A model generated the notes under the pieces. That model was given only the letters and a program-made list of their open reading frames with translations, was not told the origin of the DNA and made no database searches. The position numbers and the translations under genes are program-made. A stretch of 40,282 bases of DNA from an uncultured Selenomonadaceae bacterium (GTDB lineage: Bacteria; Bacillota; Negativicutes; Selenomonadales; Selenomonadaceae), in the NCBI GenBank assembly GCA_905234195.1, contig CAJOFR010000019.1, positions 1-40,282 of the forward strand. Reading direction: 5' to 3'. This document shows, piece after piece, positions 9,369 through 40,184 of the stretch (its first letter is position 1; each line of letters begins with the position of its first letter).

Positions 9369-9388
9369 TCTTTTGGAAGGTGATTTTT

Positions 9389-10331: not shown

Positions 10332-10589
10332 ATGATTGATAATGAAGTTGAACTCTTCACGGCGCAAAAAGCGATTGAGGAAGGGATATTCGCGGCGATA
10401 AAGCGCGGCGAAACAAGAATTGCAGGGAGTTACGAAATTTTGAGTGACGGGACTTTGAAATTTAATCAGCGGAATTTTACTTTCGTGGACAAGCATGGAA
10501 ATTTTCGCGTAGGGAGATTTAAGGACAGTACGGAGCTTGACGAATTTTTCAGCTGGTTTCATATTCCGCCGAAAAAGGAAGAAGAATAG
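10332..10589 (+). CDS. Small hypothetical phage protein
   Basis: An 85-residue protein with RBS GGAGGAA 7 nt before the ATG. It is alternately helical and strand-rich (ELFTAQKAIEEGIFAAIKRG, then LKFNQRNFTFVDKHGNFRVG) and ends in a lysine/glutamate tail. I recognise no family. It lies between the accessory insertion and the head protease gene, with 2 bp before the latter. Confidence 0.65.
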   Translation: MIDNEVELFTAQKAIEEGIFAAIKRGETRIAGSYEILSDGTLKFNQRNFTFVDKHGNFRVGRFKDSTELDEFFSWFHIPPKKEEE

Positions 10590-10591
10590 AA

Positions 10592-11689
10592 ATGCAAAGG
10601 TACGATACAGTTGCGATAACGGCAACAAAAACGAAGGAAGGATTTATCCGAGACGCGCCGATAATCGGGCGGACAGGTATTCTTCAGTATCAAAAGGAAG
10701 ACGGCACAAACAGATTTGAGTATCGTCCGCCGGAAGAAGCTTTTAACGCTGATTCACTTGCGTCTTTAAAGGGCAAACCGATAACGATTGGGCACAAGGG
10801 ATTCGTCGACGCGAAAAATGCGGCAGAGATAAAGCCGGTGGGAACAGTTTTAAGCGAAGGTCAGCAGGACGGCGACAGCATACGCGCCGAAATTGTGATT
10901 TACAATCTCGACACAACGGCGCGCGAATTAAGTTGCGGATATACGCTAGACCTTGAAGAAACGGCGGGTACCACGCCAAATGGCGAACATTATGACGCTA
11001 TCCAAAGGAATATTCGTTATAATCATGTTGCCGTTGTTCCTAAGGGGCGCGCAGGAGTAGCGCGGCTTAATCTTGACGGAGAACAAGAAATTAACGGAGA
11101 GGGAGAAAAAATAATGACTGAAAAAATGACAAAAATTAAACTCGACGGCGGGCTTGAATACGATGCCGCACCTGAAGTTGCAGTTTATGTTGATAAATTG
11201 CGCGAGGATACGGCGACACTGAATCAAAAAATTTCCGAATTGAATACAGATAATGATAAACTTCAAGCGAAATATGACGCGGCACTTGCAGACAACGAAA
11301 AAATAAAATCCGAAGGCGAAAAGAAATTGGCGGAGCTTAAAGCCAATTTCGACAGTGCGGTAAAAAATCGCGTGGAACTTTTGAACGTGGCGACGAAACA
11401 CAAAGTCGAAAAGGCTGATTCTTTATCGGATAAAGAAATTAAAATCGCGGTGATAAAATCGGTACGCGGAGACAAAATTAATCTTGACGTAAAATCAGAT
11501 GAATATATCGACGCGGCGTTTGATTTATCGAAGGAAGAAATTCAGACACATGAAGACGCGCTGGCTAACCAACGTCAGCAACTGAAAAATTCGTCGTCGG
11601 ACAAAAACGACAGTGATGACGATAGTCCAGAAAACGCGCTGAATAAATTGATTGACTATGAATCGAAACTTTATGAGCAGGAGGGCTGA
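10592..11689 (+). CDS. Prohead protease/scaffold fusion, DUF2213 type
   Basis: A 365-residue protein. The N-terminal half is DUF2213-like (GFIRDAPIIGRTGILQY near the start, ELSCGYTLDL and RYNHVAVVPKGRAGVARLNL) as in phage head maturation proteases. The C-terminal half is acidic, helical and coiled-coil-like (residues about 200-270), as in scaffold proteins, and ends in a Ser/Asp-rich tail. An internal ATG at 11114 has a strong RBS, so the scaffold half may also be made alone. It precedes the decoration and capsid genes. Confidence 0.8.
   Translation: MQRYDTVAITATKTKEGFIRDAPIIGRTGILQYQKEDGTNRFEYRPPEEAFNADSLASLKGKPITIGHKGFVDAKNAAEIKPVGTVLSEGQQDGDSIRAEIVIYNLDTTARELSCGYTLDLEETAGTTPNGEHYDAIQRNIRYNHVAVVPKGRAGVARLNLDGEQEINGEGEKIMTEKMTKIKLDGGLEYDAAPEVAVYVDKLREDTATLNQKISELNTDNDKLQAKYDAALADNEKIKSEGEKKLAELKANFDSAVKNRVELLNVATKHKVEKADSLSDKEIKIAVIKSVRGDKINLDVKSDEYIDAAFDLSKEEIQTHEDALANQRQQLKNSSSDKNDSDDDSPENALNKLIDYESKLYEQEG
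11114..11689 (+). CDS. Nested scaffold protein from an internal start
   Basis: ATG 11114 is in frame with the protease gene and lies 8 nt after GGAGAGGGAG (11096-11105), as good an RBS as any in the window. It would yield a 191-residue product starting MTEKMTKIKLDGGLEYDA, made only of the coiled-coil scaffold region. Nested scaffolds of this kind are known, for example Nu3 inside C of lambda. Use of this start is inferred from the RBS. Confidence 0.55.
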   Translation: MTEKMTKIKLDGGLEYDAAPEVAVYVDKLREDTATLNQKISELNTDNDKLQAKYDAALADNEKIKSEGEKKLAELKANFDSAVKNRVELLNVATKHKVEKADSLSDKEIKIAVIKSVRGDKINLDVKSDEYIDAAFDLSKEEIQTHEDALANQRQQLKNSSSDKNDSDDDSPENALNKLIDYESKLYEQEG

Positions 11690-11691
11690 AA

Positions 11692-12132
11692 ATGAATTGG
11701 TACAGGGATAATGAAAAAGGTTTTGCGGGAATGAAAGCGGATGCTACGCTTGATGTTTGTGATTCTTTTGCAAGCGAAGGCGGAATAGACGCGGGCGAGG
11801 CGGTGATTCGCGGTACAGATAAGGCAAAACAAGTGAAGACCGCTACAACTTCGGATATTGCAAAAATTATTGGAATTGCCCTTCACACGCACAAGGAAAT
11901 TCCCGCGACTGGGAAATATTATGAGGAAGGTTATTGCCTTCCCGTAATGACCTTCGGAGATGTGTACGTTAAAGCGGGCGGCGATGTTACAGCAGGTGAC
12001 AAAGTTTCAATCGCAATCGTTGATGAAGAAATGACGTACGTTAAGGCAACAAGTTCAAATGCGATTGAGGGATTTACTTTTTTGGACAGCGGGAGCGAAG
12101 GCGAAATAGTTCGTGTTCGTATTCGCAAGTAA
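11692..12132 (+). CDS. Capsid decoration / DUF2190-like head stabiliser
   Basis: A 146-residue beta-rich protein, starting 2 bp after the protease stop. Features such as ADATLDVCDSFASEGGIDAG, a central IIGIALH and AGDKVSIAIVDEE fit DUF2190/Gp24-like structural cement proteins that stabilise capsids. Position directly before the capsid gene agrees. The assignment is by pattern and context, without catalytic residues to check. Confidence 0.65.
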   Translation: MNWYRDNEKGFAGMKADATLDVCDSFASEGGIDAGEAVIRGTDKAKQVKTATTSDIAKIIGIALHTHKEIPATGKYYEEGYCLPVMTFGDVYVKAGGDVTAGDKVSIAIVDEEMTYVKATSSNAIEGFTFLDSGSEGEIVRVRIRK

Positions 12133-12145
12133 GGAGGATTGAAAA

Positions 12146-13120
12146 ATGGGGATTCATAACGAAAAAGGACACTACGACGCGACGGAGGCGTCCTATATTC
12201 AAAGTCAAAACAATTTCGATGAAAAGGCAAGCATTTTTCTGGCGCGTGAACTTGCTTACGTCCGCAGTAAAGTATTGGAAATCAAAAAAGCCCCGTTGAA
12301 TGCGTTTGTTGTTTTTCCCGTGCAAACAGACGTACCTGCAGGAGCAGAGGCGGCTTTTCAAAGAATTTATGATTCGGTAGGCGTGGCGGAAATAATTTCC
12401 AACTACGCGGACGATTTAAAGCGCGTGGATATTCTCGGCGAAGAAGTACCGGTAAAAGTTTTCACGGTCGGCGATGCTTACGGATATTCAGTCGTGGAGA
12501 TTGATAATGCGAGATTTGCGAACAAAAACCTGACGCTTTACAAGGCACAGGCGGCAAGGCGCGCGATAGACCAAAAGTTAAATGATTTGGCGTGGCACGG
12601 CGATAAAAGTCATAATATCACGGGATTTTTGAACAACCCGAATATTACCACGTTCGCGCTTAAAGCTGACGGTTCGGGCAATTCGACGAAGATAAAAGAT
12701 AAAACCGTTGAAAAAATTCTTCGTGATTTTAATGAGATTATTGACACGATACCTGAGACGACGCAACAGGTTGAAGAGGCGAACACAGTGATAATGGCGA
12801 CGGAAATTTTCAACCACATAGCGACGACGCCGCGCAATGACAATTCAGATTTAACAATACTCGAATTTTTAAAGAGAGTACACCCCGAAATTAGACGCTG
12901 GCTTAAAATCGGGGAATTGAACGGAGCGGGAACAGGTGGAAGTAATGTGATTATCGCGGGAAAATTCGACCCTGATTATATCAAGTTTGAAATTCCTGAA
13001 AGACTGCGTCAACTTCCCGTACAAGTGCGTAACCTTGAATATGTCGTGAATTGTATAAGCCGAGCGATAGGAGTGACAATAACGTTACCGATGGCGTTTG
13101 TAAAAGCGGAGGGAGCTTAA
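12146..13120 (+). CDS. Major capsid protein, DUF2184 type
   Basis: A 324-residue protein with features of DUF2184 (HK97-fold) capsid proteins: FLARELAYVRSKVLEIKKAP near the N-terminus, DILGEEVPVKVFTVGDAYGY in the E-loop/P-domain region, AARRAIDQKLNDLAWHGD, and a C-terminal NCISRAIGVTITLPMAFVKA. The RBS AAGGAGGA precedes the ATG. It is preceded by protease, scaffold and decoration genes in canonical order. Confidence 0.85.
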   Translation: MGIHNEKGHYDATEASYIQSQNNFDEKASIFLARELAYVRSKVLEIKKAPLNAFVVFPVQTDVPAGAEAAFQRIYDSVGVAEIISNYADDLKRVDILGEEVPVKVFTVGDAYGYSVVEIDNARFANKNLTLYKAQAARRAIDQKLNDLAWHGDKSHNITGFLNNPNITTFALKADGSGNSTKIKDKTVEKILRDFNEIIDTIPETTQQVEEANTVIMATEIFNHIATTPRNDNSDLTILEFLKRVHPEIRRWLKIGELNGAGTGGSNVIIAGKFDPDYIKFEIPERLRQLPVQVRNLEYVVNCISRAIGVTITLPMAFVKAEGA

Positions 13121-13122
13121 AA

Positions 13123-13350
13123 ATGATTCTGAATACAGGCAAATGCGCTATTAAAGCGGACGACGTGCTTTTTGTTCCGAACAAGGCGATTGACGTCGAT
13201 ATTTCTGCGCTGAAGAAAAATTTTCCTCTTATCGGGAAAATGCTGGACGCAAAAATTTTAATCGAAGTCAACAAGTCGACTGCGAAAAAAATTGAGGAAG
13301 AATCAGCAAAGCAGGTAAAATCGAGGCTTGAAGAAAATGACGGAAAATGA
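13123..13350 (+). CDS. Small hypothetical head/neck-region protein
   Basis: This 75-residue protein starts 2 bp after the capsid stop with GGAGGGAG as RBS. It is a short beta-rich protein (ILNTGKCAIKADDVLFVPNK) with a charged C-terminal helix. Genes of this size follow the capsid gene in related myoviruses. Its role is unknown. The 3' end overlaps the next gene. Confidence 0.65.
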   Translation: MILNTGKCAIKADDVLFVPNKAIDVDISALKKNFPLIGKMLDAKILIEVNKSTAKKIEEESAKQVKSRLEENDGK

Positions 13351-13768
13351 GGAGATTTTAACGGCGTTTAGACTTTTCGCGCCCGAATATCAAAGCAAAA
13401 CCGATGAATTTATTTTGGCGAGGATAGAGCTTTACAAAGATTTTTGCAGTAAAAAGTTTTTCGGGCTATACTACGAAAGGGCAATCGCGCTTTTAATTGC
13501 ACACTTTTTGACGCTTGAATCGCTGGTTGAAAATTCAAATGAGGGAATAAGCGGAGCGGCGGGTGGATTTATCACGGGAGCGGGAATAAAATCCGAAAAG
13601 GAAGGCGATTTGGCGCGCGAATATGGAGATGTTGAAATTTCCTCGTCCGCTGATAATCCGGACGCGCTTTTCGATAAGACGCTTTACGGCAAACAATTCC
13701 TGCAACTGCGCTCGATGTGTATTATTCCGGCTACAATTCGTAAGGGATTTGGTTTTCATGCCCGTTGA
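13337..13768 (+). CDS. Head-tail connector, DUF4054 type
   Basis: A 143-residue protein. The helical layout (AFRLFAPEYQSKTDEFILAR, FGLYYERAIALLIAHFLTLE) and the glycine-rich middle before a C-terminal TLYGKQFLQLRS fit DUF4054, an adaptor-like connector bound below the portal. ATG 13337 is chosen over an in-frame TTG at 13328. Both ends overlap the flanking genes, in an operon order typical of head completion. Confidence 0.75.
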   Translation: MTENEEILTAFRLFAPEYQSKTDEFILARIELYKDFCSKKFFGLYYERAIALLIAHFLTLESLVENSNEGISGAAGGFITGAGIKSEKEGDLAREYGDVEISSSADNPDALFDKTLYGKQFLQLRSMCIIPATIRKGFGFHAR

Positions 13769-14201
13769 AGTCAAAGAAAGAGATTCAAACTACAAAAAAA
13801 TCGTGGAAAACTTAAAACGGCTAAACAAAAAATCAGTCAAAGCGGGAGTTTTTTCAGACGCAGGAAAAGAAGATAATGGTACCCCGATTGTTGATGTGGC
13901 GATTTACAATGAATACGGCACAAGATTTATTCCTTCAAGACCTTTCGTCAGAATAGCGACGGAAAAAAATAAAAAAATGTGGCTGGACGGGGCAGAGCAA
14001 GTAGTTGATAACGTAATTGACGGACAAAAAGCCAATTTCTCAAATTTGGGCAAGCAGATGGTGGAAAATATTCGTGAAGTCATAGGCGATAAAGGTTTGC
14101 TTGTACCGAATGCGCCGTCAACAATTCGGAGAAAAGGGCACGATTTGCCGTTGATTGAGACCGGCAAGCTGAAAAAATCGATTAGATTTGAGGTTGGTTA
14201 A
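13758..14201 (+). CDS. HK97 gp10-like head-tail/neck protein
   Basis: A 147-residue protein whose AIYNEYGTRFIPSRPFVRIA is the signature of HK97-gp10-like proteins. A late region with PNAPSTIRRKGHDLPLIETG and LKKSIRFEVG is also characteristic. It acts at head completion or the tail terminator ring. ATG 13758 lies 10 nt after TAAGGGA and overlaps the previous gene by 11 bp. Confidence 0.8.
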   Translation: MPVEVKERDSNYKKIVENLKRLNKKSVKAGVFSDAGKEDNGTPIVDVAIYNEYGTRFIPSRPFVRIATEKNKKMWLDGAEQVVDNVIDGQKANFSNLGKQMVENIREVIGDKGLLVPNAPSTIRRKGHDLPLIETGKLKKSIRFEVG

Positions 14202-14203
14202 AA

Positions 14204-14572
14204 ATGGGCTTTAGAACAACGCAAATTATTCGACGAAAAAGCGGCGGGCACGTCAATGACGACGGGATTTATATTGGCGGGCAATCGCAAGAAATAAAAA
14301 TTCAAGCGTCAGTACAGCCAACGATTTTGAGAGAACGAACACAGCGAACGGGTTATGATAATCCAGGCGGCAGGACAATCAATCTTTTGAAAGTTTATTC
14401 TGATATTGAATTATTTCCGACGAAACAGGCGACGGAGAACACGGAAATAACTGAAGGCGATGTTTTAATTTGGCGAGACAAAACGTGGCGATGTATAGGT
14501 TGCGACGCTTTTAAAAGTAACGTTATTTCTCACTACCGCGCAATTTTTCAAGAGGTAGATTGTGATGATTAA
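14204..14572 (+). CDS. Hypothetical neck/connector protein
   Basis: A 122-residue beta-rich protein, 2 bp after the gp10-like gene. Strands around IYIGGQSQEIKIQASVQPTI and DVLIWRDKTWRCIGCDAF resemble small head-closure or stopper proteins at this operon position. I cannot name a family from the sequence. The role is inferred from neighbours. Confidence 0.6.
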   Translation: MGFRTTQIIRRKSGGHVNDDGIYIGGQSQEIKIQASVQPTILRERTQRTGYDNPGGRTINLLKVYSDIELFPTKQATENTEITEGDVLIWRDKTWRCIGCDAFKSNVISHYRAIFQEVDCDD

Positions 14573-15092
14573 GGAGCAGAAAAAATTTCTTCATGACGTA
14601 ATAGCCGAAATATTAGGCTTACCGTTGAATAAAGTTATCTGGGCTAATCAGACAATGCCGCGACAAATGACGCCTTTTGTGCTGTTGCGATTATTCGGTA
14701 TGAAATCGGAGGCGGCGGAAGAAATTCGCGAAACAGAAAATGACGACGAGAAAAAAATTTTTGTTCCGCAAGCGGTGATTCTCGAAGTGCAATATTTTGC
14801 GGGATATTCAAAGGAAACAGACCCGTCAGCGGAATTGGAAAAACTTTTGCGTCAACTTGAAAATCCTTTAATCGTCGACAAATTTTCTCAAGCAAGATTA
14901 GCTGTTTTCGGCAACGAGATAATTCAAGATTTAACGACGCTGATTGACGGGCAGACGTACGAATATCGCGCGTTAGTCGAATTGCGTATTCGGTATAATT
15001 CGGAAATAGAAAGCAAACTCGGAGTTATAGAAAAAGTGATAATGACAGATGATTTGATAGGAGGGAGAAAATGGCAAACATTGATAGAATAG
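14565..15092 (+). CDS. Tail terminator / neck protein (LIC_12616-like)
   Basis: About 175 residues. LGLPLNKVIWANQTMPRQMT followed by PFVLLRLFG and a C-terminal YEYRALVELRIRYNSEIESK fit the phage neck terminator family placed just before sheath genes. ATG 14565 follows GAGGTAG; a GTG at 14562 is equally in frame. It overlaps the preceding stop and the following sheath start. Confidence 0.7.
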   Translation: MIKEQKKFLHDVIAEILGLPLNKVIWANQTMPRQMTPFVLLRLFGMKSEAAEEIRETENDDEKKIFVPQAVILEVQYFAGYSKETDPSAELEKLLRQLENPLIVDKFSQARLAVFGNEIIQDLTTLIDGQTYEYRALVELRIRYNSEIESKLGVIEKVIMTDDLIGGRKWQTLIE

Positions 15093-16459
15093 TCAACGTG
15101 CAAATATCGCTTAACACGGCGGAAATAAGTCGCGAAGGATTCAGCACAGGATTAATCGTCGGTGCACATGCGCATACCTTAGGCAGGGTGCAAACATATA
15201 CTTCGCTTGACGGAATGATGAATGACGGGTTCACGGTAGCTGACCCGATTTTTCAAGCGGCGAATGATTATTTCGCGCAGATACCGAAACCGAAACACGT
15301 AAAAATCGGCAGACAGAAATGCGCAGTCGAACTTACAGTTGCAGATATTGAAGAGACGGAAACTTATTCCGTGTTTACTTTAACAAAGGACAGCGCGGGA
15401 AATGTTACGACGCTTGCTTATCGTTATAAAAACGTTGGGTACACCGATGTTGAAGATATTTTGACGGGGATAGCGAACTTGATTTTGGCGGACGCGGACG
15501 CGGTTGTTAATCCGGTGATAGGTGGCGGCACGCTGACTTTAGGTGCAAAGGCGGGAAAAGATTTTGCGATAAAAGTTTCGGACAATCTTTCGACACGTGC
15601 TTTAACTTCAACAGAGGCAATTGCAAAGACAATGGCAGAAATTGTAGCTGAAGACAATGATTTTTACGGAATCATGCTTATGAGCCGCAGACAAATTGAT
15701 ATAATGGCGATGGCGGCTTGGACGGAGGCACATACTAAAATTTTTGGCACGGCAATAAACGAAGACGGAGCAAAGGACGCCTCGTCAATGACTGACACGG
15801 GATATTTATTACAGAAAAATAATTATTTCCGTACGTTTTGGTTTTATCATCAAGACGCAGAGAATGATTATCCCGAATGTGCAGTTATGGCAAGATGTTT
15901 TTCGATTTTACCAGGTGGCGAAACGTGGGCTAATAAGCGGCTGGCGGGCGTCACGCCGTCACAGCTCACAGAAACTGAATACCTGTCAATCACCTACAAG
16001 AACGGGAATACGTTTGAAAAATTCCGCAATATCTCGATAACTCAAAACGGGAAGACGGCGGCAGGAGAATGGATAGACGTTATTCGATTCAGAGATTGGT
16101 TGGTAGAGGAAATTTCCAATCGGATATTTACTTTGCTGGTAAACAATGACAAAATACCGTACACGGACGCGGGAATAACGCGGGTTGAAGCGCAGATAAG
16201 GTCGGCTTTGGAGCTTGGGCAAGCTCGCGGGGGTATCGCGCCTACCGAATACGATGAAAACCACAACAGGAATTTAGGATTTACAGTAACGGTTCCTCTT
16301 TCGTCGCAAATTTCATTCGGGCAAAAGGCAAGTCGAATTTTAGAGGACGTCGAATTTACAGCAAGACTGGCGGGAGCAATTCACTGCGTCGAAGTTAGAG
16401 GCAATTTAACTTACGACAATTTGATTGTAGACAGGCTGGCAACAGGAGGGGTAGCGTGA
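15071..16459 (+). CDS. Tail sheath protein, DUF3383 type
   Basis: The 462-residue contractile sheath subunit. It begins ANIDRIVNVQISLNTAEISR, contains GFSTGLIVGAH and a C-terminal IRSALELGQARGGIAPTEYD, which fit DUF3383 sheath-like proteins. RBS AGGAGGGAG. The next gene encodes the tube, giving the sheath-tube order of myoviruses. This gene pair establishes a contractile tail. Confidence 0.88.
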   Translation: MANIDRIVNVQISLNTAEISREGFSTGLIVGAHAHTLGRVQTYTSLDGMMNDGFTVADPIFQAANDYFAQIPKPKHVKIGRQKCAVELTVADIEETETYSVFTLTKDSAGNVTTLAYRYKNVGYTDVEDILTGIANLILADADAVVNPVIGGGTLTLGAKAGKDFAIKVSDNLSTRALTSTEAIAKTMAEIVAEDNDFYGIMLMSRRQIDIMAMAAWTEAHTKIFGTAINEDGAKDASSMTDTGYLLQKNNYFRTFWFYHQDAENDYPECAVMARCFSILPGGETWANKRLAGVTPSQLTETEYLSITYKNGNTFEKFRNISITQNGKTAAGEWIDVIRFRDWLVEEISNRIFTLLVNNDKIPYTDAGITRVEAQIRSALELGQARGGIAPTEYDENHNRNLGFTVTVPLSSQISFGQKASRILEDVEFTARLAGAIHCVEVRGNLTYDNLIVDRLATGGVA

Positions 16460-16923
16460 TGATATTTGATTTACAGAGATTCGGGCAAGTTTTGACGTAT
16501 GACCCCAAAAAAGTTACAGTGTCGTTTGGTACGCATCAGATAACGGGCTTTAGCGAAGATGATTTTTTGAGTTTGGAGCCGTCGGGTGAAGGCGTGCAAA
16601 AAGTCACCGGTGTAGACGGTGAAGTAGGACGTTCGCTTGACCCGAATGAAACTTTTCATATCACAATTCATTTGGCGTCAACGTCGAAATCGAATAAGCA
16701 CTTGAGTGAAGTTTATAACCTTGACAAGAAAACCGGTCGTGGAATGTATGACTTCATGATAAAAGATTTAAGCGGGAGCACGTTATTTCATGCAGAGCAA
16801 GCTTGGATTACAAATTTTCCTTCAGCTGATATGGGGAAAACAATATCAACGTATGATTGGGAGTTTGACACTGGAAAAGTCGAAGACCCAATTATAGGCG
16901 GAGCGGAAGGAGACGATAATTAA
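16459..16923 (+). CDS. Tail tube protein, DUF3277 type
   Basis: A 154-residue protein with DUF3277-like features: DPKKVTVSFGTHQITGFSED, ETFHITIHLASTSKSNKHLS, and FHAEQAWITNFPSADMGK. It builds the rigid inner tube inside the sheath. It begins MIFDLQRFG, a short N-terminal tag that I associate with some Firmicute phage structural proteins. ATG 16459 follows GGAGGGG; GTG 16456 is an alternative. Confidence 0.85.
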   Translation: MIFDLQRFGQVLTYDPKKVTVSFGTHQITGFSEDDFLSLEPSGEGVQKVTGVDGEVGRSLDPNETFHITIHLASTSKSNKHLSEVYNLDKKTGRGMYDFMIKDLSGSTLFHAEQAWITNFPSADMGKTISTYDWEFDTGKVEDPIIGGAEGDDN

Positions 16924-17456
16924 TGGCGCGTGATATATTCGCAAGGAAGAAAATCATTTTCGGCAATGATGTTTTTTATGTCCAGCAATATCCGCCTTTT
17001 GAAGGGATAAGGGTTTTAGGTGAACTGCAAAAGGTGATTTTGCCGGCGATAGGCGGAGCGGCGATTGGCTTTAGCGAACACGGTTTTGGCGAAGGTATTG
17101 CAGGTAGCTTGTTGAATATTTCGGACAATCTTGACGCGGATAAGGTAGAAACTCTTTCGAGAATGCTTTTAAATCCAAAATATGTCGCTGTAGATATAGG
17201 CGGTACAGGTGACAGGAACAAATTTAAGCAGTTGGACGAAGACACGATAGCCGAAATTTTCACCGGCAGATATATTGACATGATAATTTTGATGATAAAG
17301 ATAGCGAAAGAAAATTTCGCGGATTTTACTCAGCTCTGCGGAATCCCAACTGGCGTTGCAAGAGGCATAGAAAACGTAATAGCGCAATTCCAGGAGAGCT
17401 TGACGCAGAGTTTGAACGGCAACTTTTCATCTACAGAGCAATCGACGCAGGAATAG
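16923..17456 (+). CDS. Tail assembly chaperone
   Basis: A 177-residue protein at the standard position between tube and tape measure genes, starting in a TAATG overlap. The sequence has a beta-rich start, a helical core (AIGFSEHGFGEGIAGSLLNI), GRYIDMIILMIKIAKENFAD and a polar C-terminus (SLNGNFSSTEQSTQE). The -1 frame remains open past its stop and encodes a conserved-looking extension, as in G/GT pairs. Chaperones of this type coat the tape measure during assembly. Confidence 0.75.
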   Translation: MARDIFARKKIIFGNDVFYVQQYPPFEGIRVLGELQKVILPAIGGAAIGFSEHGFGEGIAGSLLNISDNLDADKVETLSRMLLNPKYVAVDIGGTGDRNKFKQLDEDTIAEIFTGRYIDMIILMIKIAKENFADFTQLCGIPTGVARGIENVIAQFQESLTQSLNGNFSSTEQSTQE

Positions 17457-17605
17457 TTTCATGGCTTGACGTCAAAGAAGGCAACGTAACTTTAACGGAG
17501 CTTGTAAGAATCAACAATTACTTAGACTTTAAAGCCGACGTGAAATATTTCGCCGAGTTTGACGAAGTAGAAAAGATGAAGAAAGAATCAAGGCGCAGGT
17601 GGTAG
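17396..17605 (+). CDS. Second tail chaperone segment, probably made by -1 frameshift
   Basis: In the -1 frame relative to the chaperone gene, the DNA encodes ELDAEFERQLFIYRAIDAGI, then VSWLDVKEGNVTLTELVRIN, then NYLDFKADVKYFAEFDEVEK, ending in TAG 17603-17605, 2 bp before the tape measure ATG. No ATG, GTG or TTG begins this segment, so it is likely a frameshift extension as in lambda GT. The only strict X-XXY-YYZ heptamer in the right phase is AAATTTC at 17312-17318, which seems early. The true shift site is uncertain. Confidence 0.65.
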   Translation, partial: ELDAEFERQLFIYRAIDAGIVSWLDVKEGNVTLTELVRINNYLDFKADVKYFAEFDEVEKMKKESRRRW

Positions 17606-17607
17606 TC

Positions 17608-17994
17608 ATGGCGGGAACAGCACGCGAACTTGTGACGAAGGTTACGTTTAATGTTGATAACGCAAGCTTGAAACGTACACAAGGCGCGATAACAGATTTA
17701 AAAAAGGAACTAGAGCGGCTTGGTTCAGCTGTGGATAAGTCGGTAAATAGTTCGTTGGTAAAAGTTCGGCAGAATGTTACCAAAACTTCAATGGAGATTG
17801 ACAAATTAAAACAGAAGCTTGATAGTTTGAAAATTAAAGACGTCAATGCAAAAAGCGACGGCGGGAATCGTGGCGGCTTAAAAAGCATGACAGTCAATAA
17901 TCTGAAAGCCACAATCACCAATTTAAACGCAAAAGCGAGCAATGTTGGGGTTAAAGGCACGAAAGTTATCGTTGACGGATTCAAACTCGAATAA
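17608..17994 (+). CDS. Tape measure protein, N-terminal part (frame broken)
   Basis: ATG 17608 follows AGGTGG by 7 nt and 2 bp after the chaperone extension. The 128 residues (GTARELVTKVTFNVDNASLK, then coiled coil to about residue 75) are a standard tape measure N-terminus. The frame ends at TAA 17992-17994 just where the first copy of a 120-bp repeat lacks two bases. Adding the two bases joins it to the frame continuing at 17995, giving a 960-residue protein. Confidence 0.75.
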   Translation: MAGTARELVTKVTFNVDNASLKRTQGAITDLKKELERLGSAVDKSVNSSLVKVRQNVTKTSMEIDKLKQKLDSLKIKDVNAKSDGGNRGGLKSMTVNNLKATITNLNAKASNVGVKGTKVIVDGFKLE

Positions 17995-18140
17995 AGACAA
18001 AACTGAAAGTATCACCAACTTGAAAGCCACAATCACCAATTTAAACGCAAAAGCGAGCAATGTTGGGGTTAAAGGCACGAAAGTTATCGTTGACGGATTC
18101 AAACTGCCGAATAAAGACAAAACTGAAAGTATCACCAACT
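17903..18140 (+). repeat. Tandem 118/120-bp duplication in the tape measure gene
   Basis: Unit 1 (17903-18020, 118 bp) and unit 2 (18021-18140, 120 bp) are identical except that AAACTGCCGAAT in unit 2 reads AAACTCGAAT in unit 1. A third unit begins at 18141 but diverges after about 22 bp. Each 120-bp unit encodes 40 residues beginning LKATITNLNAKASNVGVKG. Confidence 0.95.
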
Positions 18141-20488
18141 TGAAAGCCACAATCACCAATTTGACTGCAAGAGCAAGCAACGCGCAACTGAAGGCAACGA
18201 AAGTGGACGCGAAGTCGAACATAGCAAAGATAACTTCCAGTCAAACGGAAGTAAAAGGCGGCAACGTAAGTGTAGCAGATTTAAAATTGCCGGCGATAGA
18301 TGTAAGCGACGTAAATTTGAGAAATTTGCGTGTCATGCATGCTGACAGGGTTTATATCAAAGGGAATATCAGCGGCGGTGGCGGTTCAGGCGGTGGCGGC
18401 GGCGGTTCAGACGATGATGAAAACACGCCGTCAATCGCAGATTTGGGCTCGAATTTAGCGGCGGGCGGAGCGGCGGCGACTGCTGTTGGAATGGCGATGA
18501 TGGCTCCTACCGCTTACGGCTTGAAAATAGCTATGGACTACGACGCTATAATGTCAATGGTGAAGGCGAAGGCGACGACGGGAATGTCGGAGGAAGACGC
18601 GGCGGCGGCTATGAAAAATCTGGACGAATACGCAAGATATATCGGAACCACGACGAGATTCACTGATATACAAGCGGCACAGGCGACGAATTATGCGGCG
18701 TCTATGGGTTGGAAGACAGAAGAAATTACAGGCGGCGGCTTGAAAGGCGCGGTAGATTTAGCAATAGCAGGACAAGAGGACGTAGCTTTAACGACCAAAA
18801 TTATCGCACAAACTCTGAATGCTTTGCACATGACGGCAAGCGACGCGCCAAAATTGGCGGACGCGATGGCGGCGGCTGTTTCCAATTCAAGTGCGACAAT
18901 AAAAGAATTGGGAGTAGCTTTCGGATATGCGGCGAATGTAGCGGGCAATCTCGGTTATTCTGAAAAGGATTTAATATACGCGCTCAGCTTGATGATGAAC
19001 TCGGGTGTAAACGGTTCAAAAGCCGGCACAGCTTTTCAGACAATCGCAACGAGAATGGCAACTAATCACAAGGCAACTGCAAGGGCAATGGCGATTCTCG
19101 GCATTGACATGAAAAAAGTTGATGAAAATGGAAACGTCGTCATGAAACCTCTTATGGAACTTATAGATGAGGGGCGAGCAAAATTTACTGAAGTCGACCC
19201 CGAAAGAAATTTGGCTATGATAGAGGAGTTGACAGGTTCAAAGGCTACAGATAAGAAAAAGGCGTTGGCTATTCTCACAAAAATAAAAGAAAGTGGCGGG
19301 AAAATTACCGAAGACCTAGATATGGAATTTGCCAATGCGTTTGGCGGTTTGTGGCACATGGGCGGCGCGCTTGCCTTGTTCACGGGGCCCGAAGAGCGAA
19401 AAGAAATAATAAAAAACGCGATAATTAACAGCGAAGGTGCGGCGGCGAAAATGGCGGAAACTACGCAAGACAACTTGCCAGGTTCACTCGTTTTGTTACA
19501 ATCGGCGATAGACGCGTTGGCACATCAGATAGGAGATATTTTCTCGCCTATTTTGAAAGACTTAGCTGACACGCTTACACCGATAATCAGAAGTATAGGC
19601 GAATTTGCGAAGGAACATCCGAAATTAACGGCGGCGATTTTCGGTACGGTGACAGCTGTTGGTGCGCTGTTAGTCGTGCTTGGTTCTTTGGGAATGTTGG
19701 TTGGCAATATCATGCAGTTGGTTCCGGTATTTACGGCTTTGGGCGGATTATTGGGCGCGGGCGGCTGGAGCGGATTATTCGCGGGTATGGCGGCGTCGAT
19801 ACGAGCTTTGTTGACGACGCTTTTGACGCCGTTCGCTTTTTTAGGCGGAAAGATAAAAGCGTTAATAATGACATTACTCACGCCTGTGCGGGCAGTTGCT
19901 AATTTGTTGGCAATAATTTTTAGAGCTACGATTGGTGAATGGCTCACGGCGCGGTTACCTCTGATAACGCAATTTTTGAGGACGATAGTTGCGGCTTTAG
20001 GCGGACCCATAATGGTGGCGATTTTGGCTTTGGGCGCGGCTTTATACTATGTTTATAATCACTGGGAAGAAGTGAAAGCATCGTTTGCTGAAAGTCTGCC
20101 TGAACTGGAGGCGGCAATTAATAAAATCAAGTATGCGTGGGAATCGATACAGCCGGCGGTTGATACTGCGGCGTCAGTAATTTCATATTTGGTTGACTTA
20201 ATCGGCAAGGGCTTAGTTTTTGCGATAGAAATAATGTGGAAAGCGGCAGTAAAAGCTTTTGGCGCGCTTGCTGAAGTGATAAACACGGCGGCTTGGGCTT
20301 TTAACGGGATAAAAGAATTTTTCGGGAATACAGCGAAGGCGGCGGCTAATCAAGCGACAAGCAATTATAGTTCGCCGAGTTACAACTATAATACTTACGA
20401 GCAGAATAATCAGTTTTCGGGATATAGTCCGGGACAAGCGGCAGATTTTGTACGCAATTCAATGCCGACAGCATATGCTAATCGTTGA
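17942..20488 (+). CDS. Tape measure protein, main part (TP901-type core)
   Basis: The frame carries the rest of the tape measure: repeat units, a GGGGSGGGGGGS linker (near 18376-18411) and a TP901-1-like tape measure core (YDAIMSMVKAKATTGMSEED, TRFTDIQAAQATNYAASMGW, SGVNGSKAGTAFQTIATRMA). Hydrophobic segments follow (GTVTAVGALLVVLGSLGMLV) and a Tyr/Asn-rich tail. The formal ATG 17942 has no RBS and lies inside repeat unit 1, so it is probably not a natural start. It sets tail length and occupies the tube lumen. Confidence 0.85.
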   Translation: MLGLKARKLSLTDSNSNKDKTESITNLKATITNLNAKASNVGVKGTKVIVDGFKLPNKDKTESITNLKATITNLTARASNAQLKATKVDAKSNIAKITSSQTEVKGGNVSVADLKLPAIDVSDVNLRNLRVMHADRVYIKGNISGGGGSGGGGGGSDDDENTPSIADLGSNLAAGGAAATAVGMAMMAPTAYGLKIAMDYDAIMSMVKAKATTGMSEEDAAAAMKNLDEYARYIGTTTRFTDIQAAQATNYAASMGWKTEEITGGGLKGAVDLAIAGQEDVALTTKIIAQTLNALHMTASDAPKLADAMAAAVSNSSATIKELGVAFGYAANVAGNLGYSEKDLIYALSLMMNSGVNGSKAGTAFQTIATRMATNHKATARAMAILGIDMKKVDENGNVVMKPLMELIDEGRAKFTEVDPERNLAMIEELTGSKATDKKKALAILTKIKESGGKITEDLDMEFANAFGGLWHMGGALALFTGPEERKEIIKNAIINSEGAAAKMAETTQDNLPGSLVLLQSAIDALAHQIGDIFSPILKDLADTLTPIIRSIGEFAKEHPKLTAAIFGTVTAVGALLVVLGSLGMLVGNIMQLVPVFTALGGLLGAGGWSGLFAGMAASIRALLTTLLTPFAFLGGKIKALIMTLLTPVRAVANLLAIIFRATIGEWLTARLPLITQFLRTIVAALGGPIMVAILALGAALYYVYNHWEEVKASFAESLPELEAAINKIKYAWESIQPAVDTAASVISYLVDLIGKGLVFAIEIMWKAAVKAFGALAEVINTAAWAFNGIKEFFGNTAKAAANQATSNYSSPSYNYNTYEQNNQFSGYSPGQAADFVRNSMPTAYANR

Positions 20489-20489
20489 C

Positions 20490-20518
20490 TTGATTTAGTG
20501 TTTTAAAAACGATAAAAT
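20490..20518 (+). promoter_or_regulatory. Promoter of the hicAB module
   Basis: TTGATT (20490-20495), a 17-bp spacer and TAAAAT (20513-20518) start at the tape measure stop codon and lie 20 bp before the hicA ATG. Confidence 0.6.
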
Positions 20519-20538
20519 AGGTGCGGGGAGCGATAAAA

Positions 20539-20727
20539 ATGCCGAAGGTTTCAGAGCTGATAAGAAAAGTGAAAAAAGCGGGTTGCAAGTTTGAAAGTCA
20601 AGGGACGAATCACGAATGGTGGTATAGTCCGATAACAGACAAAAAATTTCAAATACCGCGTCATCAATCTCAAGAAATCGACACAAGAACATATTATTCG
20701 ATTTTGAAACAGGCAGGGATTAGATAA
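20539..20727 (+). CDS. hicA: HicA-family mRNA interferase toxin
   Basis: A 62-residue protein, full length for HicA. It has the double-stranded RNA-binding-like fold signature KVSELIRKVKKAGCKFESQG followed by TNHEWWYSP with the catalytic histidine (H25), then IPRHQSQEIDTRTYYSILKQ. HicA cleaves mRNA in a translation-independent way. ATG 20539 follows GGGGAG by 9 nt; a GTG at 20521 would add six residues. It precedes hicB by 15 bp. Confidence 0.88.
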   Translation: MPKVSELIRKVKKAGCKFESQGTNHEWWYSPITDKKFQIPRHQSQEIDTRTYYSILKQAGIR

Positions 20728-20742
20728 AGAGGGGTGGTTTAA

Positions 20743-21099
20743 GTGAAATACGTTTATCCGGCGATATTTTACAAAGTTATTGAAGGCGGTTATTCAGTCG
20801 AGTTTCCTGATGTTGAAGGAGCAATAACTTGCGGTAAAACACTTTATGAGGCGTTAGAAATGGCGGAGGATTCACTTGCAGGAATGTTGGTTTGCTGGGA
20901 AGATTTTAAGGCGGGAAAATCGCAATATCCTATGGCGAATAGAATAGTTGACCCGACGCCGATAGAAAAAGTTGTGGTGGAGACGGACGAATATTCGACA
21001 AGTGCGTTTGTTACACTGATTAAAGTTGATACGGACGCTTACAGGAAAGAACTTGCGTCAATGCAGGTGAAAGAATCGGCGACAAAAGGTGCGGCGTAA
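20743..21099 (+). CDS. hicB: HicB-family antitoxin
   Basis: A 118-residue protein with the HicB N-terminal partial RNase H fold: YPAIFYKVIEGGYSVEFPDV, ITCGKTLYEALEMAEDSLAG. The C-terminus lacks a clear Arc/HTH repressor domain, and VVVETDEYSTSAFVTLIKVD is a strand region. The start is GTG with AGGGGTGG upstream. It neutralises HicA and may not be a strong autorepressor. Confidence 0.85.
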   Translation: MKYVYPAIFYKVIEGGYSVEFPDVEGAITCGKTLYEALEMAEDSLAGMLVCWEDFKAGKSQYPMANRIVDPTPIEKVVVETDEYSTSAFVTLIKVDTDAYRKELASMQVKESATKGAA

Positions 21100-21107
21100 A
21101 AATAAAC

Positions 21108-21138
21108 AGTACTTGCTAATAAAGGCGGGTACTTTTTT
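21108..21138 (+). terminator. Terminator after hicB
   Basis: AGTACTTGC (21108-21116) pairs with GCGGGTACT (21125-21133) including two G-T wobbles, then a T run to 21138. It closes the hicAB module 17 bp before the next tail gene start. Confidence 0.7.
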
Positions 21139-21155
21139 GTGAGAGGTGAAAAAAT

Positions 21156-22361
21156 TTGGCAACGAGACCGAAAATTCCTTACGACGTCAAAGAGCGTGCA
21201 ACAATCGGAGATTTAAAATGCGATGTTATTATCGAGAGGACGGTTAATTTAGAAAATGAAGTTACACAATATCCGGTAGAGGACGGATTTGCGATAAGCG
21301 ACCATGTTACGAGGAAACCAATAACTTTGAACATGACGGCTTTTTTCACTCCAACACCGGTAACTTTTTTTTCGGAAATAGGGAACAATCAGAATCGCCT
21401 TGCCGAAGTTTTCACCGCGTTACATGAGATTTATCGAAGAGGCGAGCCAATAACGATAAGGACAACCGACGCAATTTTCTATGATATGGTAATGACAAAT
21501 GCACCTTTACCGCGAAACGTCCGAGACGGATTGGCTTATTCAGCACAGTTATCTTTCGTGCAGGTTAGGCGAGTGTTTCAAAAGACAGAGGCTTTACCTA
21601 ATGCAGAGGCAGATGGCAAAAACGGTGAAACGGAACTAGACGCAGGGTACAGTTCGCAGACGGAAATAGGTACAGGAATAAAAGTTATTTACAATACGGC
21701 GACGACTGAAATAAACACGCTGGCAATATCTCAACCACAATCCGGAGATATTACTACCGGCAACGAGCAAAAAGCAAAAGTAGCCGCTGATTCTGTTCAT
21801 GAGAGTTTAAGCCCCGAAACAGCGGCTACGAACGGCGCAAAAGTTATTTATCCTAATCATACGGTAAGAGCTTTTACGTCGAGCCAAATAAAAACCGGAA
21901 TGCTGGAAGTTTTTTTGGAAGGGCTAATAGTGCAAGGGTATACAATAGCGTCGACGAATATCGATTCAGCAGGCGTCAAGTATTATTACTTGAAAAATCC
22001 GAAAAAAGAGTGCACGAAGATAGTTTATCCGAATGGAACGACGATAAACTTCTTAAAATCGGCTGTAGACAGCGGGCAATTGGAAAGGCGATTAAATCAG
22101 CTGAAAGGACAAGGATATGAAGTTGCATCAACCAACGCCGAAAACGGCACGACTTATTATTATTTGAAAAATCCGTCTGAAGGTAATGCTAAAATTATTT
22201 ATCCGAATGGTTCAAGTCGGGTATTCTCAAAAAGCAACGTTGACAATGGAATTTTAGACCAATTTTTAAATCAGCTGAAGGAAAACGGTTACGAAGTTGC
22301 GTCCAGTAATACCGATGAAAGCGGTACAACGTACTATTTCTTGAAAGAAAACTCGGAGTGA
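21156..22361 (+). CDS. Dit-like baseplate/tail protein with C-terminal repeats
   Basis: A 401-residue protein starting at TTG after GAGAGGTGA. Residues 1-145 resemble distal tail (Dit-like) baseplate proteins: DVIIERTVNLENEVTQYPVE, a FFSEIGNNQNRLAEVFTAL segment and LAYSAQLSFVQVRRVFQK. A polar linker leads to three tandem repeats (229-287, 288-345, 346-401). Each opens K(V/I)(I/V)YPN and closes YYYLK or YYFLK. The repeats are not part of the usual fold and could contact other baseplate parts or the cell surface. Confidence 0.7.
   Translation: MATRPKIPYDVKERATIGDLKCDVIIERTVNLENEVTQYPVEDGFAISDHVTRKPITLNMTAFFTPTPVTFFSEIGNNQNRLAEVFTALHEIYRRGEPITIRTTDAIFYDMVMTNAPLPRNVRDGLAYSAQLSFVQVRRVFQKTEALPNAEADGKNGETELDAGYSSQTEIGTGIKVIYNTATTEINTLAISQPQSGDITTGNEQKAKVAADSVHESLSPETAATNGAKVIYPNHTVRAFTSSQIKTGMLEVFLEGLIVQGYTIASTNIDSAGVKYYYLKNPKKECTKIVYPNGTTINFLKSAVDSGQLERRLNQLKGQGYEVASTNAENGTTYYYLKNPSEGNAKIIYPNGSSRVFSKSNVDNGILDQFLNQLKENGYEVASSNTDESGTTYYFLKENSE
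21840..22358 (+). repeat. Three tandem 58-59-residue coding repeats
   Basis: Units start at 21840, 22017 and 22191. Shared features are KIIYPNG, an F-x-K-S-x-V-D-x-G helix start, QLKxxGYEVASxN and TTYYYLKNP. The protein is conserved but the DNA is diverged, so the duplication is old. Confidence 0.85.
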
Positions 22362-22366
22362 TACTG

Positions 22367-22759
22367 ATGAAAATATTAGATTTGATAGACGCGAATGACT
22401 TTGTGACGTCGGCGATTTTAGATGGGGTGAATTATAAATTGCACTTCAGCTGGAATGACGGTTGCGACGAGGGATTTTGGACGATAGATTTGAGGGACAG
22501 CGGAAATTCGGATATCATACGAGGATTAAAACTGGTACCGAATTTTCCTTTGTTGAATCAGTATAGGCGATTATCGGACAAGATACCGCGAGGGGAATTT
22601 TTAGTTGGGGTAGTTAATCAGACTATGACGGTGAATCAGATGATACCGCGCGACGGATTTTCAAAGGGAACTTTTTCATTAATTTATCTACCTGCGGAGG
22701 AATTAAAAAATGTATTGGCGGAGAATGTATCGAATAGTTTTTCCGGATTTAGGATTTGA
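22367..22759 (+). CDS. Baseplate plug-like protein
   Basis: A 130-residue beta-rich protein between Dit-like and hub genes, where myoviruses of this type encode a small baseplate plug protein (DUF6983-like). Visible features are LHFSWNDGCDEGFWTIDLRD, GLKLVPNFPLLNQYRRLSD and GTFSLIYLPAEEL. ATG 22367 lies 8 nt after GGAG; a GTG at 22358 is in frame. Family assignment rests on pattern and position. Confidence 0.65.
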   Translation: MKILDLIDANDFVTSAILDGVNYKLHFSWNDGCDEGFWTIDLRDSGNSDIIRGLKLVPNFPLLNQYRRLSDKIPRGEFLVGVVNQTMTVNQMIPRDGFSKGTFSLIYLPAEELKNVLAENVSNSFSGFRI

Positions 22760-23618
22760 GTTTAATAATCTCGACGAACAAGAGGCATTGAATATAAGTT
22801 TTAGCATAGACAAAGACTTGACAGAGGCAACGAACAAGTCGAAGCTGACGATAATAAATTTATCGGAGGAAACTATTCGTAAAATAGAAAAGGCAGATAC
22901 GGCGGTTGAGATTTACGCAGGGTACAGGGATAATGGCGGCGCGCTACAAATATTCAGCGGGAGTATAATAGAATGCGAAACGAAAGATGAAGGCGTTGAC
23001 GTAGTGACCGAGATGACTTTATCTGACGGGCAAGTTTCGGTGCGTGACACGATGGTTACATTGAATTTTGCGCCGGACACGAACTCGAAAGTTATTGTAG
23101 AAATGCTGGCAAAGGAAATGAATTTGCCGCTGGTGTTGGGAAAAGACGTTACCTTCAAGAGTTATCCGGAGGGCTATTCTTTTTACGGAAAAGCGGCGGA
23201 CGCTTTATCGGAAGTATGCAAGGGAAATAAATTAACGTGGTCGATACAAAATGGCGAACTGACGATAATTTTAAATGGCGGGATAACGGCGCAGAGGGGA
23301 ATAGTTTTTTCGGCGTCAAGCGGGCTGATAGGTGCTCCCGAAAGAGTAATTAACGCTAATCAGTACGAAGATTTGATGACGATAGCGCGGGAGATTGACC
23401 AAAAGGAATTGAAGGAAAAGCCGAATAAGAGCGAAGGCTGGCGGATAAAAGTTTTGTTATCCCCGACAGTACAAGCCGGAGATTATATCAAAGTTGAATC
23501 GCGGCGAGTGCAAAGTTGGATGCGCGTCGAAAAAATCAAACACAGCGGGAATTTGGACGGCGGAGAATGGATAACCGAGCTTGAGTTAGTGGAGGTTGAT
23601 TTAAATGCAGACGGATAA
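22710..23618 (+). CDS. Baseplate hub protein (gp44/gp27-like)
   Basis: A 302-residue protein overlapping the plug gene, with RBS GGAGGAA. Features fit late control D/hub proteins: LNISFSIDKDLTEATNKSKL, AVEIYAGYRDNGG, GYSFYGKAADALSEVCKGNK and a C-terminal GDYIKVESRRVQSWMRVEKI. The hub adapts the tube end to the central spike encoded next. Confidence 0.8.
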   Translation: MYWRRMYRIVFPDLGFEFNNLDEQEALNISFSIDKDLTEATNKSKLTIINLSEETIRKIEKADTAVEIYAGYRDNGGALQIFSGSIIECETKDEGVDVVTEMTLSDGQVSVRDTMVTLNFAPDTNSKVIVEMLAKEMNLPLVLGKDVTFKSYPEGYSFYGKAADALSEVCKGNKLTWSIQNGELTIILNGGITAQRGIVFSASSGLIGAPERVINANQYEDLMTIAREIDQKELKEKPNKSEGWRIKVLLSPTVQAGDYIKVESRRVQSWMRVEKIKHSGNLDGGEWITELELVEVDLNADG

Positions 23619-24225
23619 CGAATTTAAAACCGTCGTGAAAGAGTGGACGGAGGAAAGATTATCGAATGTGCATACCGCATTACCCGCGAAAGTTGTTGGG
23701 GTGCTTGACCCCGAAAAGGAAAAGGACGACCCTTGCGTAAATGTACAACCTTATGGGAAATTTAAGACTGCAGACGGCAGGCGGTTACCTTATCCTATTA
23801 TCCGCAGAGTTCCTATAGTCTTTCCTTGTGGCAATGATGGCAACAGCGGCTTAACTTTTCCTGTTTACAAAGGCGATACCGGCTTGATTGTTTTCGCCGA
23901 AAGTCAGATAACGGATTTTATGTTCGGTGAAAAATATAATTGTGATGACCCGCGAAGATTTTCGCTGAATGACGCCGTATTCTTTCCAGGTCTTTATTCA
24001 CGTGAAACATCTAAAAAAATTTCGCGTGGTAGCGGCGTTTGTATGTTTCATAACGGCAGTTTTGTTAGGCTTACAGGTAGTGCGTTGACAGGAACAATCG
24101 GAGCGACGAGTTTCAGTTTCAGCAACGGTGATTTAATTGTGAACGGAGTTTCTCTTAAGAAACAGCGGGAGGATTTGAATTTATTACAATATATCTACGG
24201 GCGAGGCGGGGTAAATGGCGTATGA
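23605..24225 (+). CDS. Central spike protein with Gp138 N-terminal OB domain
   Basis: A 206-residue protein. HTALPAKVVGVLDPEKEKDD and VFPCGNDGNSGLTFPVYKGD, then DTGLIVFAE, are typical of the Gp138/phage spike OB domain. The C-terminal SGVCMFHNGSFVRLTGSALT and strands after it could form the triple beta-helix tip. It overlaps both neighbours, which supports co-translation with the hub and gp25-like protein. Confidence 0.82.
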   Translation: MQTDNEFKTVVKEWTEERLSNVHTALPAKVVGVLDPEKEKDDPCVNVQPYGKFKTADGRRLPYPIIRRVPIVFPCGNDGNSGLTFPVYKGDTGLIVFAESQITDFMFGEKYNCDDPRRFSLNDAVFFPGLYSRETSKKISRGSGVCMFHNGSFVRLTGSALTGTIGATSFSFSNGDLIVNGVSLKKQREDLNLLQYIYGRGGVNGV

Positions 24226-24589
24226 TTTAGCTTTAGATTTTGACAGCTGGGATTTGGAACTTGAAAACAATGATTTGATTCTGATAGACGGAGCGGAAAG
24301 AATAGCGCAACAGATTTTAATTACGTTGCGTTTTTTTTATGGCGAATGGTTTTTAGATTTAACTGACGGCACGCCTTATCTCGAAGAAATTTTAGTAAAA
24401 ACCCCCAATCTTGCTCACGTAAGACAGATAATTTCTGAAAAGATTTTAAGTGTCGAAGGCGTTGATTCGCTTGATTCGTTAACGCTTGATTATGACGTAC
24501 AGAAAAGAAATTTAGTTATAGAATACGAGACGAGTACAAGCTACGGCTTAATAACGCGGCGGGAGGTGATAAACTATGGCACTGGTTGA
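24215..24589 (+). CDS. Baseplate wedge protein, DUF2634/gp25-like
   Basis: A 124-residue protein with the gp25/DUF2634 pattern: ERIAQQILITLRFFYGEWFL, a DLTDGTPYLEEILVK segment and a closing helix-strand region. Gp25-like proteins seed sheath assembly at the baseplate. The gene overlaps spike and J genes. Confidence 0.82.
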   Translation: MAYDLALDFDSWDLELENNDLILIDGAERIAQQILITLRFFYGEWFLDLTDGTPYLEEILVKTPNLAHVRQIISEKILSVEGVDSLDSLTLDYDVQKRNLVIEYETSTSYGLITRREVINYGTG

Positions 24590-26018
24590 ATACGGATTAT
24601 CGGCGACAGGATTTAGGCGAAAGAGATTGCCTGAAATAATTCAAGATTTAAATGAAAGAGTTTCAGACAAACTTGGTGTACCGATAGAAACCGGAGCAAA
24701 CTCTATTTTCGGACAACTTCACGGTGTTTACGGATTTGCACTTGCCGAAATTTGGGAAAACTTAGAGAAAATCTATAACGCGATGTATCCGAGCACAGCT
24801 AACGGAGTATCGCTATCAAACGCGGCGGGATTAGCGGGGATTGCGCAAATATCGGCAGAAAAAACGACGATTATTGCCACGTGTTACGGGAATGAAAGCG
24901 TGTTGATTCCGTACGGGGCAAATATCGCGTCAAGAATAGATAATTCAATGATATTCACTAATCTTGAAGTGGATAAAAGAATTTCAGCAAGTCAAGCATG
25001 TGAAATAAATCTGACAATACCGACCGTTGAAGTGGGCAAAACTTATCAGATAAATCTAGACGGGGAGCAAGCGAGTTACAGGGCGGCTGATTCTGATACG
25101 AGCGTGGATATTTTTTCGGCGTTGGCTTTACAATTTGAGTTTGATGACAAAGAATTTGTAATTGACGATGACGGATTGACGATAGAAATGAATGACGCGG
25201 AGGAAACTTTTTCGCTGTCAACGAGCACGATTAATATTGCGAGAATAGGAACGCCATATAAATTTGAGTGCGTGAACTACGGGGCGAATGCGCCGCCAAT
25301 AGGAACGGTGACGCATATTATAACTAATTATTCCGGTTGGACAGATGTTGTTAATAACAAAGTGGCGAATGTGGCGAGGAATGCTGAAACGGACACTGAA
25401 TTACGTCAAAGGTGGGCGCGGAGCGTCTATGCAAGGGGTTTAATGATGACAGACGCAATAGCCGCTAGTATTTACCAATACTGCGACGGGGTAACTTTGG
25501 CGAGGGTGTACGAAAATACGTCAGATGAAATGGATTCGGACGGGCGACCGCCACACTCGATAGAGGCTGTTGTTGAAGGAGGAGACCCGCAAGAAATTTG
25601 CAAGGTTATACTCGAAAAGAAGGCGGCAGGAATTGACACATACGGTAGCATAAAGCGAACGATAACCGATATTCAAGGTGTTTTTCATCCGATTTATTTT
25701 AATCGTCCTGTAGATTTAAAAATCTGGTTGAAGATTGAATTATCGACGGAAGATAATGAAGTAAACGAGATTTTAAGTGGATTACAGAATATAAAAAAGG
25801 CGATACTCGAACGCGGCGCGACGTATGAAGTTGGACAAGATGTGAAGGTACAAACGTTTTATCAAGATGTTTATAACAACACGACGGGCGTTGGTTACGT
25901 AACGATAACTTCAGCGACGGGCGAAACACCCAGTCTTTATTCGGCAAAAAATATTAAAATAGATTGCAGACACCGAGCAGTTTTTGACGAAAGCAGAATT
26001 GAAGTGATTGAGCTTTGA
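24576..26018 (+). CDS. Baseplate J-like protein
   Basis: A 480-residue J-like wedge protein. The N-terminus (GLSATGFRRKRLPEIIQDLN) and GANSIFGQLHGVYGFALAEI are characteristic. ETDTELRQRWARSVYARGLM and HSIEAVVEGGDPQEICKVIL belong to the conserved core, ahead of the PVDLKIWLKIEL strand. It links gp25-like and fibre-carrying parts of the wedge. RBS GGGAGGTGAT with ATG 7 nt later. Confidence 0.9.
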   Translation: MALVEYGLSATGFRRKRLPEIIQDLNERVSDKLGVPIETGANSIFGQLHGVYGFALAEIWENLEKIYNAMYPSTANGVSLSNAAGLAGIAQISAEKTTIIATCYGNESVLIPYGANIASRIDNSMIFTNLEVDKRISASQACEINLTIPTVEVGKTYQINLDGEQASYRAADSDTSVDIFSALALQFEFDDKEFVIDDDGLTIEMNDAEETFSLSTSTINIARIGTPYKFECVNYGANAPPIGTVTHIITNYSGWTDVVNNKVANVARNAETDTELRQRWARSVYARGLMMTDAIAASIYQYCDGVTLARVYENTSDEMDSDGRPPHSIEAVVEGGDPQEICKVILEKKAAGIDTYGSIKRTITDIQGVFHPIYFNRPVDLKIWLKIELSTEDNEVNEILSGLQNIKKAILERGATYEVGQDVKVQTFYQDVYNNTTGVGYVTITSATGETPSLYSAKNIKIDCRHRAVFDESRIEVIEL

Positions 26019-40148: not shown

Positions 40149-40184
40149 CTTAATCACCACCTGCCGCAATATCCTTGAATTTCC

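Follow-up and report, generated by a model that had tools for sequence, protein, structure and literature searches.

Short direct repeats can give rise to tandem duplications through slippage or unequal exchange. For tape measure genes, length changes have been described in the lactococcal siphophage TP901-1. The available part of that study reports that an N-terminal duplication in the tape measure gene left the titre undiminished and made the tail longer, that the N-terminal 154 residues are required for infectivity, with N-terminal deletions giving no plaques, and that an amber mutation in the gene lowered infective efficiency; it also suggests that the tape measure repeats ease duplication and deletion (PMC5099701). 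Because the amber mutation reduced TP901-1 infection and did not abolish it, loss of tape measure function need not be complete.

The locus studied here lies in the window, i.e., the whole analysed stretch of 40,282 nucleotides, which makes up all of contig C19 (CAJOFR010000019.1) in the draft genome of an uncultured Selenomonadaceae bacterium (GCA_905234195.1). The window ends (1-126 and 40178-40282) match repeats on other contigs of the genome, and on contig C2 an IS605 OrfB HTH domain (PF12323) directly follows the left-end match. The two ends are arranged as one element closing a circle, or as two flanking copies. At the left end, the minus strand at 147-2549 encodes a protein of 800 aa whose amidoligase domain matches PF12224 (E 2.1e-70), and a protein with a SocA/Panacea antitoxin-like domain (PF13274) is encoded at 9380-9835 among the head genes. 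The Rfam search of the window gave nothing at gathering thresholds, and the search for 16S gave no match in the genome, so the host was placed through its genus-mate (G037, below). The genes around the break are the following:

15071-16459, sheath (phrog_205)
16456-16923, virion structural protein (phrog_280)
16923-17456, tail assembly chaperone (phrog_1613, PF21822)
17608-17994, + strand, N-terminal piece of the split tape measure gene, 128 aa, starting at ATG 17608 with AGGTGG before it (phrog_36805, E 2.9e-6)
17927-20488, + strand, downstream tape measure piece in another frame, opening at 17927 with its first ATG at 17942, 848 aa (phrog_28, E 7.1e-68)
18317-18376, + strand, motif LRNLRVMHADRVYIKGNISG after the variable linker, with similar motifs in the related loci L032, L033 and L024

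TAA 17992-17994 closes the reading frame that starts at ATG 17608, and in the window the gene is not a single uninterrupted reading frame. Both pieces matched tape measure families, the N-terminal piece more weakly than the downstream one, which also matched phrog_1533 (E 1.2e-67), and both lie where a tape measure gene is expected, after the sheath and tail assembly chaperone genes. The chaperone gene (16923-17605) is arranged for a -1 frameshift like lambda G/GT: the heptamer AAATTTC occupies 17312-17318 in the right phase, and the -1 frame continues to TAG 17603-17605. In L024, AAATTTT occurs at 10554, again in that phase. The tail operon also contains a HicA/HicB toxin-antitoxin pair (PF07927, PF15919), at 20539-21099 between the tape measure and Dit-like genes. 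L033 and L024 have no room for such a pair there, as their next ORF begins 11-12 nt beyond the end of the tape measure gene.

Two IMG/VR contigs, L032 and L033, gave the clearest view of the undivided protein. Their sheaths are 65% and 62% identical to that of the window, and in each the tape measure gene is one open frame (806 and 791 aa, respectively) that matches both sides of the repeat. The N-terminal piece is 49% identical to L032, 41% to L033 and 36% to L024 over 71-78 residues, and the L032/L033 motif HAD(R/K)V(Y/F)(I/V)KGNI matches the downstream piece. Because the N-termini of L032 and L033 match the upstream piece and their motif matches the downstream piece, the two pieces in the window represent one protein. 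L024, together with L025, comes from contig CAJOFG010000056.1 of genome G037 (uncultured Selenomonadaceae bacterium, isolate Red_deer_3_mag_64), which belongs to the same genus as the genome of the window. The sheath type of the window was found in two of 66 genus genomes, its own and G037, with 63% sheath identity between them. Like the window, the L032, L033 and L024 modules have sheaths 62-65% identical to it and the tube, chaperone and tape measure genes in the same order. Unlike the window, all three tape measure proteins lack the 40-aa repeat; the gene is open in L032 and L033, whereas in L024 (10845-13179) it is split near the C-terminal end into 643 + 138 aa, a different position from that of the break in the window. 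The last 110 bases of the G037 contig presumably resemble the start of a transposase gene; the 33 aa encoded there had no match in Pfam.

We extended the comparison to 87 related loci. Sixty-three entered the ORF test (the other 24 were mostly short), and 12 of these were dropped for having less than 4500 nt beyond the sheath match, including L025 of G037, whose tape measure gene is split. All 51 testable loci had a single ORF of 524-806 aa at the tape measure place, an ORF being called tape measure by place and size, and several of the 51 being near copies of one another.

The break lies within a short tandem duplication, whose parts are as follows:

17903-18020, + strand, repeat unit 1, 118 nt, 2 nt shorter than unit 2 (TRF and unit alignment)
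18021-18140, + strand, repeat unit 2, 120 nt or 40 codons (TRF and unit alignment)
17903-17924, + strand, left outer copy of a 22-bp direct repeat
18021-18042, + strand, middle (junction) copy of the 22-bp repeat, its left flank like that of the right outer copy and its right flank like that of unit 1
18141-18162, + strand, right outer copy of the 22-bp repeat
18141-18208, + strand, diverged third copy of the unit start, its first 22 nt identical and 63% at the protein level

TRF reported two arrays in the window, one of 13 bp and the other at 17903-18180 (period 118, 2.3 copies, score 503). The sole difference between units 1 and 2 is a 2-nt gap in unit 1, with no substitutions, leaving exact tracts of 85 nt to the left of the gap (17903-17987 against +118) and 55 nt to the right (17988-18042 against +120). 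Apart from these tracts, the window has no exact non-overlapping direct repeats of at least 25 nt within 500 bp, and the duplication is not a chance match. A 22-bp exact repeat stands at the starts of unit 1, unit 2 and the diverged third copy. The direct repeat at both unit ends and the hybrid junction are the marks of a tandem duplication and point to slippage or unequal exchange between short direct repeats. The original prediction, made from the sequence alone, had described a tape measure gene whose frame is broken inside a tandem duplication of two adjacent units, identical except for the gap, which closes the frame at TAA 17992. The phrog_28 and phrog_36805 matches, the fit of both pieces to one protein in relatives, TRF and the unit alignment all agree with it, and the remainder of the gene is indeed open in the other frame (17927-20488). 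Its sums are also right: 2881 nt from start to stop, and 961 or 921 codons (stop included) with two bases added or one unit removed. It overlooked the 22-bp repeat with its third copy, and the condition that an exchange must fall left of the gap to give an open frame.

Such a clean duplication is uncommon in this genome, since a control sample of 20 stretches of 20 kb (400 kb of the 2.09 Mb) contained one TRF array with a period of at least 100 (L130, 149 bp, 88% match, score 450). The same 400 kb held 21 exact local repeats of at least 25 nt, the longest of 99 nt, and nine of the ten longest were in L130. This locus, on contig C11, is a cluster of long local direct repeats (1057-2949, up to 99 nt exact), with spacings of 259-441 nt among those listed.

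We consider it probable that a recent in-frame duplication followed by a 2-nt deletion constitutes a loss-of-function lesion in this copy of the gene. The element would be a contractile-tail phage, probably a prophage, whose tape measure protein has a variable, internally repetitive linker between the N-terminal region and the motif ending HADRVYIKGNISG. The starting point would have been a pair of 22-bp direct repeats spaced 120 bp apart in this linker, and slippage or unequal exchange between them may have produced the in-frame tandem duplication of 40 codons. The duplication is in frame because the unit equals 40 codons, and it appears recent because no substitution separates the units. By itself it would only have lengthened the protein. 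A later, separate 2-nt deletion in unit 1 would then have broken the frame, leaving the 128-aa stub and the 848-aa remainder in another frame, and the element as sequenced may be poor at, or incapable of, normal tail building. If the siphophage TP901-1 is a guide to a contractile-tail phage, the duplication would have been tolerated, whereas tail building would be impaired or lost through the frame break. As with any unstable tandem duplication, a unit could also be lost by the mechanism that created it and at times leave an open frame, which we would regard as incidental mutability and not as an evolved switch.

Some points count against this lesion. With a draft genome, an artefact may underlie either the gap or the duplication. 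The account also requires two recent events within 240 nt, and no second copy of the phage was found to confirm the lesion. The downstream protein had no relative in genome_contigs or viral_contigs. Megablast of 10500-26500 against 50,697 phage records gave no match, and the 22-mer was present in none of the contigs of viral_contigs. In the 66 genus genomes, the DNA of 17600-18420 matched itself; its further matches, one elsewhere in its own genome and others in three more genomes, were short and lay at 18372-18420. Records of the window's own or a very near genome may be missing from these searches. Of the 189 family genomes, the one with the repeat peptide was its own. More distant tape measure proteins are widespread, with matches in 32 of 99 genomes (the best besides its own at 31-33% identity) and in 582 records of a tblastn search against phages, all below 60%. 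No relative with a different unit number was found, the search having yielded no same-species phage and more distant relatives without the linker repeat.

A related possibility, which we hold tentatively, is that the prophage is decaying and the tape measure lesion is one step of a general loss. The two readings are compatible and our confidence in them overlaps, as decay would account for tolerance of the lesion. Each end of the contig falls within a copy of an IS200/IS605-type element, the sole tyrosine-integrase match in the genome is on contig C6 with none on C19, and the split tape measure gene of the same-genus relative G037, although broken elsewhere, may point to general decay. However, it is common for assembly to stop a contig in an IS copy, and the early genes of the phage, integrase included, may sit on another contig; the integrase search covered the tyrosine type. 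The neighbouring genes also speak against general loss. The 37 window genes were compared with the fetched loci, taking the best hit among the top three shown, and 12 had no relative there; among the 23 others that had one, the alignment covers at least 85% of the shorter protein for 22 and 81% for the remaining gene (21156-22361). Because 22 of these 23 align so fully, the tape measure break looks isolated. The blastx scan for further frame breaks reported none, but it also missed the known tape measure break and is therefore insensitive.

The main rival to the lesion is a mixture of variants in the draft assembly. On this account, which we regard as rather unlikely, a population with unit-number variants, or with a minor 2-nt deletion variant, was merged into one draft contig and the real gene is open. 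The genome is in 47 contigs and 88% complete, the 85-nt and 55-nt exact tracts can tangle short-read graphs, the break looks isolated and the gene is open in every testable related locus, all of which favour this account. Assemblers collapse repeats more often than they expand them, which counts against an artefact. Moreover, the identity at the hybrid junction extends over no more than 22 nt, and unless the assembly used a very small word size, a true duplication should be present in some of the reads. Nor does the genome show a general excess of indels. Greedy ORFs in the 400-kb sample averaged 325 aa with 93.5% coverage, making a general indel error of the assembly unlikely, although ORF length and coding fraction are an indirect measure, used here with no comparison genome. 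We infer that the lesion is present in the DNA and is not a consensus of mixed variants.

The original prediction further proposed that a single exchange between the units would restore an intact gene, so that the gene could be reversibly off. The first part holds for exchanges to the left of the gap (85 of the 140 aligned nt), where the geometry does allow in-frame unit loss, and fails for those to the right (55 of 140), which keep the break. The second part lacks support: in-frame loss is automatic whenever one copy of a 120-nt duplication lacks 2 nt, and is therefore no evidence for a switch or for design. No variation was seen. A phase-variable gene would be expected to keep its repeat in related elements. 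This repeat was not found in relatives, being confined among the family genomes to its own, with its 22-mer missing from viral_contigs and the peptide from L032, L033 and L024. Among the listed titles matching tape measure, phase variation and prophage, none concerned a tape measure gene switch. It is accordingly very improbable that repeat number turns this gene on and off, and we give as little credence to a scheme in which unit exchange silences the gene in most lysogens while part of the population has it open, with tail assembly gated by repeat recombination.

The original prediction also named alternatives. Two of these, a sequence or assembly error and a decayed prophage, are the readings weighed above. 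The third, a rare recoding event in which a frameshift in the overlap (17927-17991) or a restart at ATG 17942 yields a working or two-piece protein, is as improbable as the switch. The two frames do overlap by 65 nt and the adjacent upstream chaperone gene has a -1 frameshift layout, but the tape measure frames need a +1 shift, for which we know of no strong site recognisable by eye among the overlap codons (a GGGG run comes closest). Nor is there a clear ribosome-binding site for ATG 17942, and the gene is a single open frame in L032 and L033.

The break is most likely ordinary in kind, the result of an ordinary mutation or a draft-assembly fault and not a switch. When a draft genome shows a broken frame within a repeat, the break should not be taken for a switch unless read evidence supports this. 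If the lesion is real, it would be a snapshot of tape measure linker growth by short-repeat duplication, spoiled by a small deletion. As in the described short-repeat tandem duplications, a 22-bp repeat stands at both unit ends, the junction copy is a hybrid and the units are identical; only the added 2-nt deletion sets this locus apart from a plain case. As in lactococcal phage TP901-1, to the extent covered by the available part of the study (PMC5099701), the length change is in frame, lies within the tape measure gene and involves repeats. Unlike TP901-1, for which the same part gives an 11/18-residue repeat, the window has a unit of 40 codons in the N-terminal linker and a frame-breaking 2-nt deletion in one of its units.
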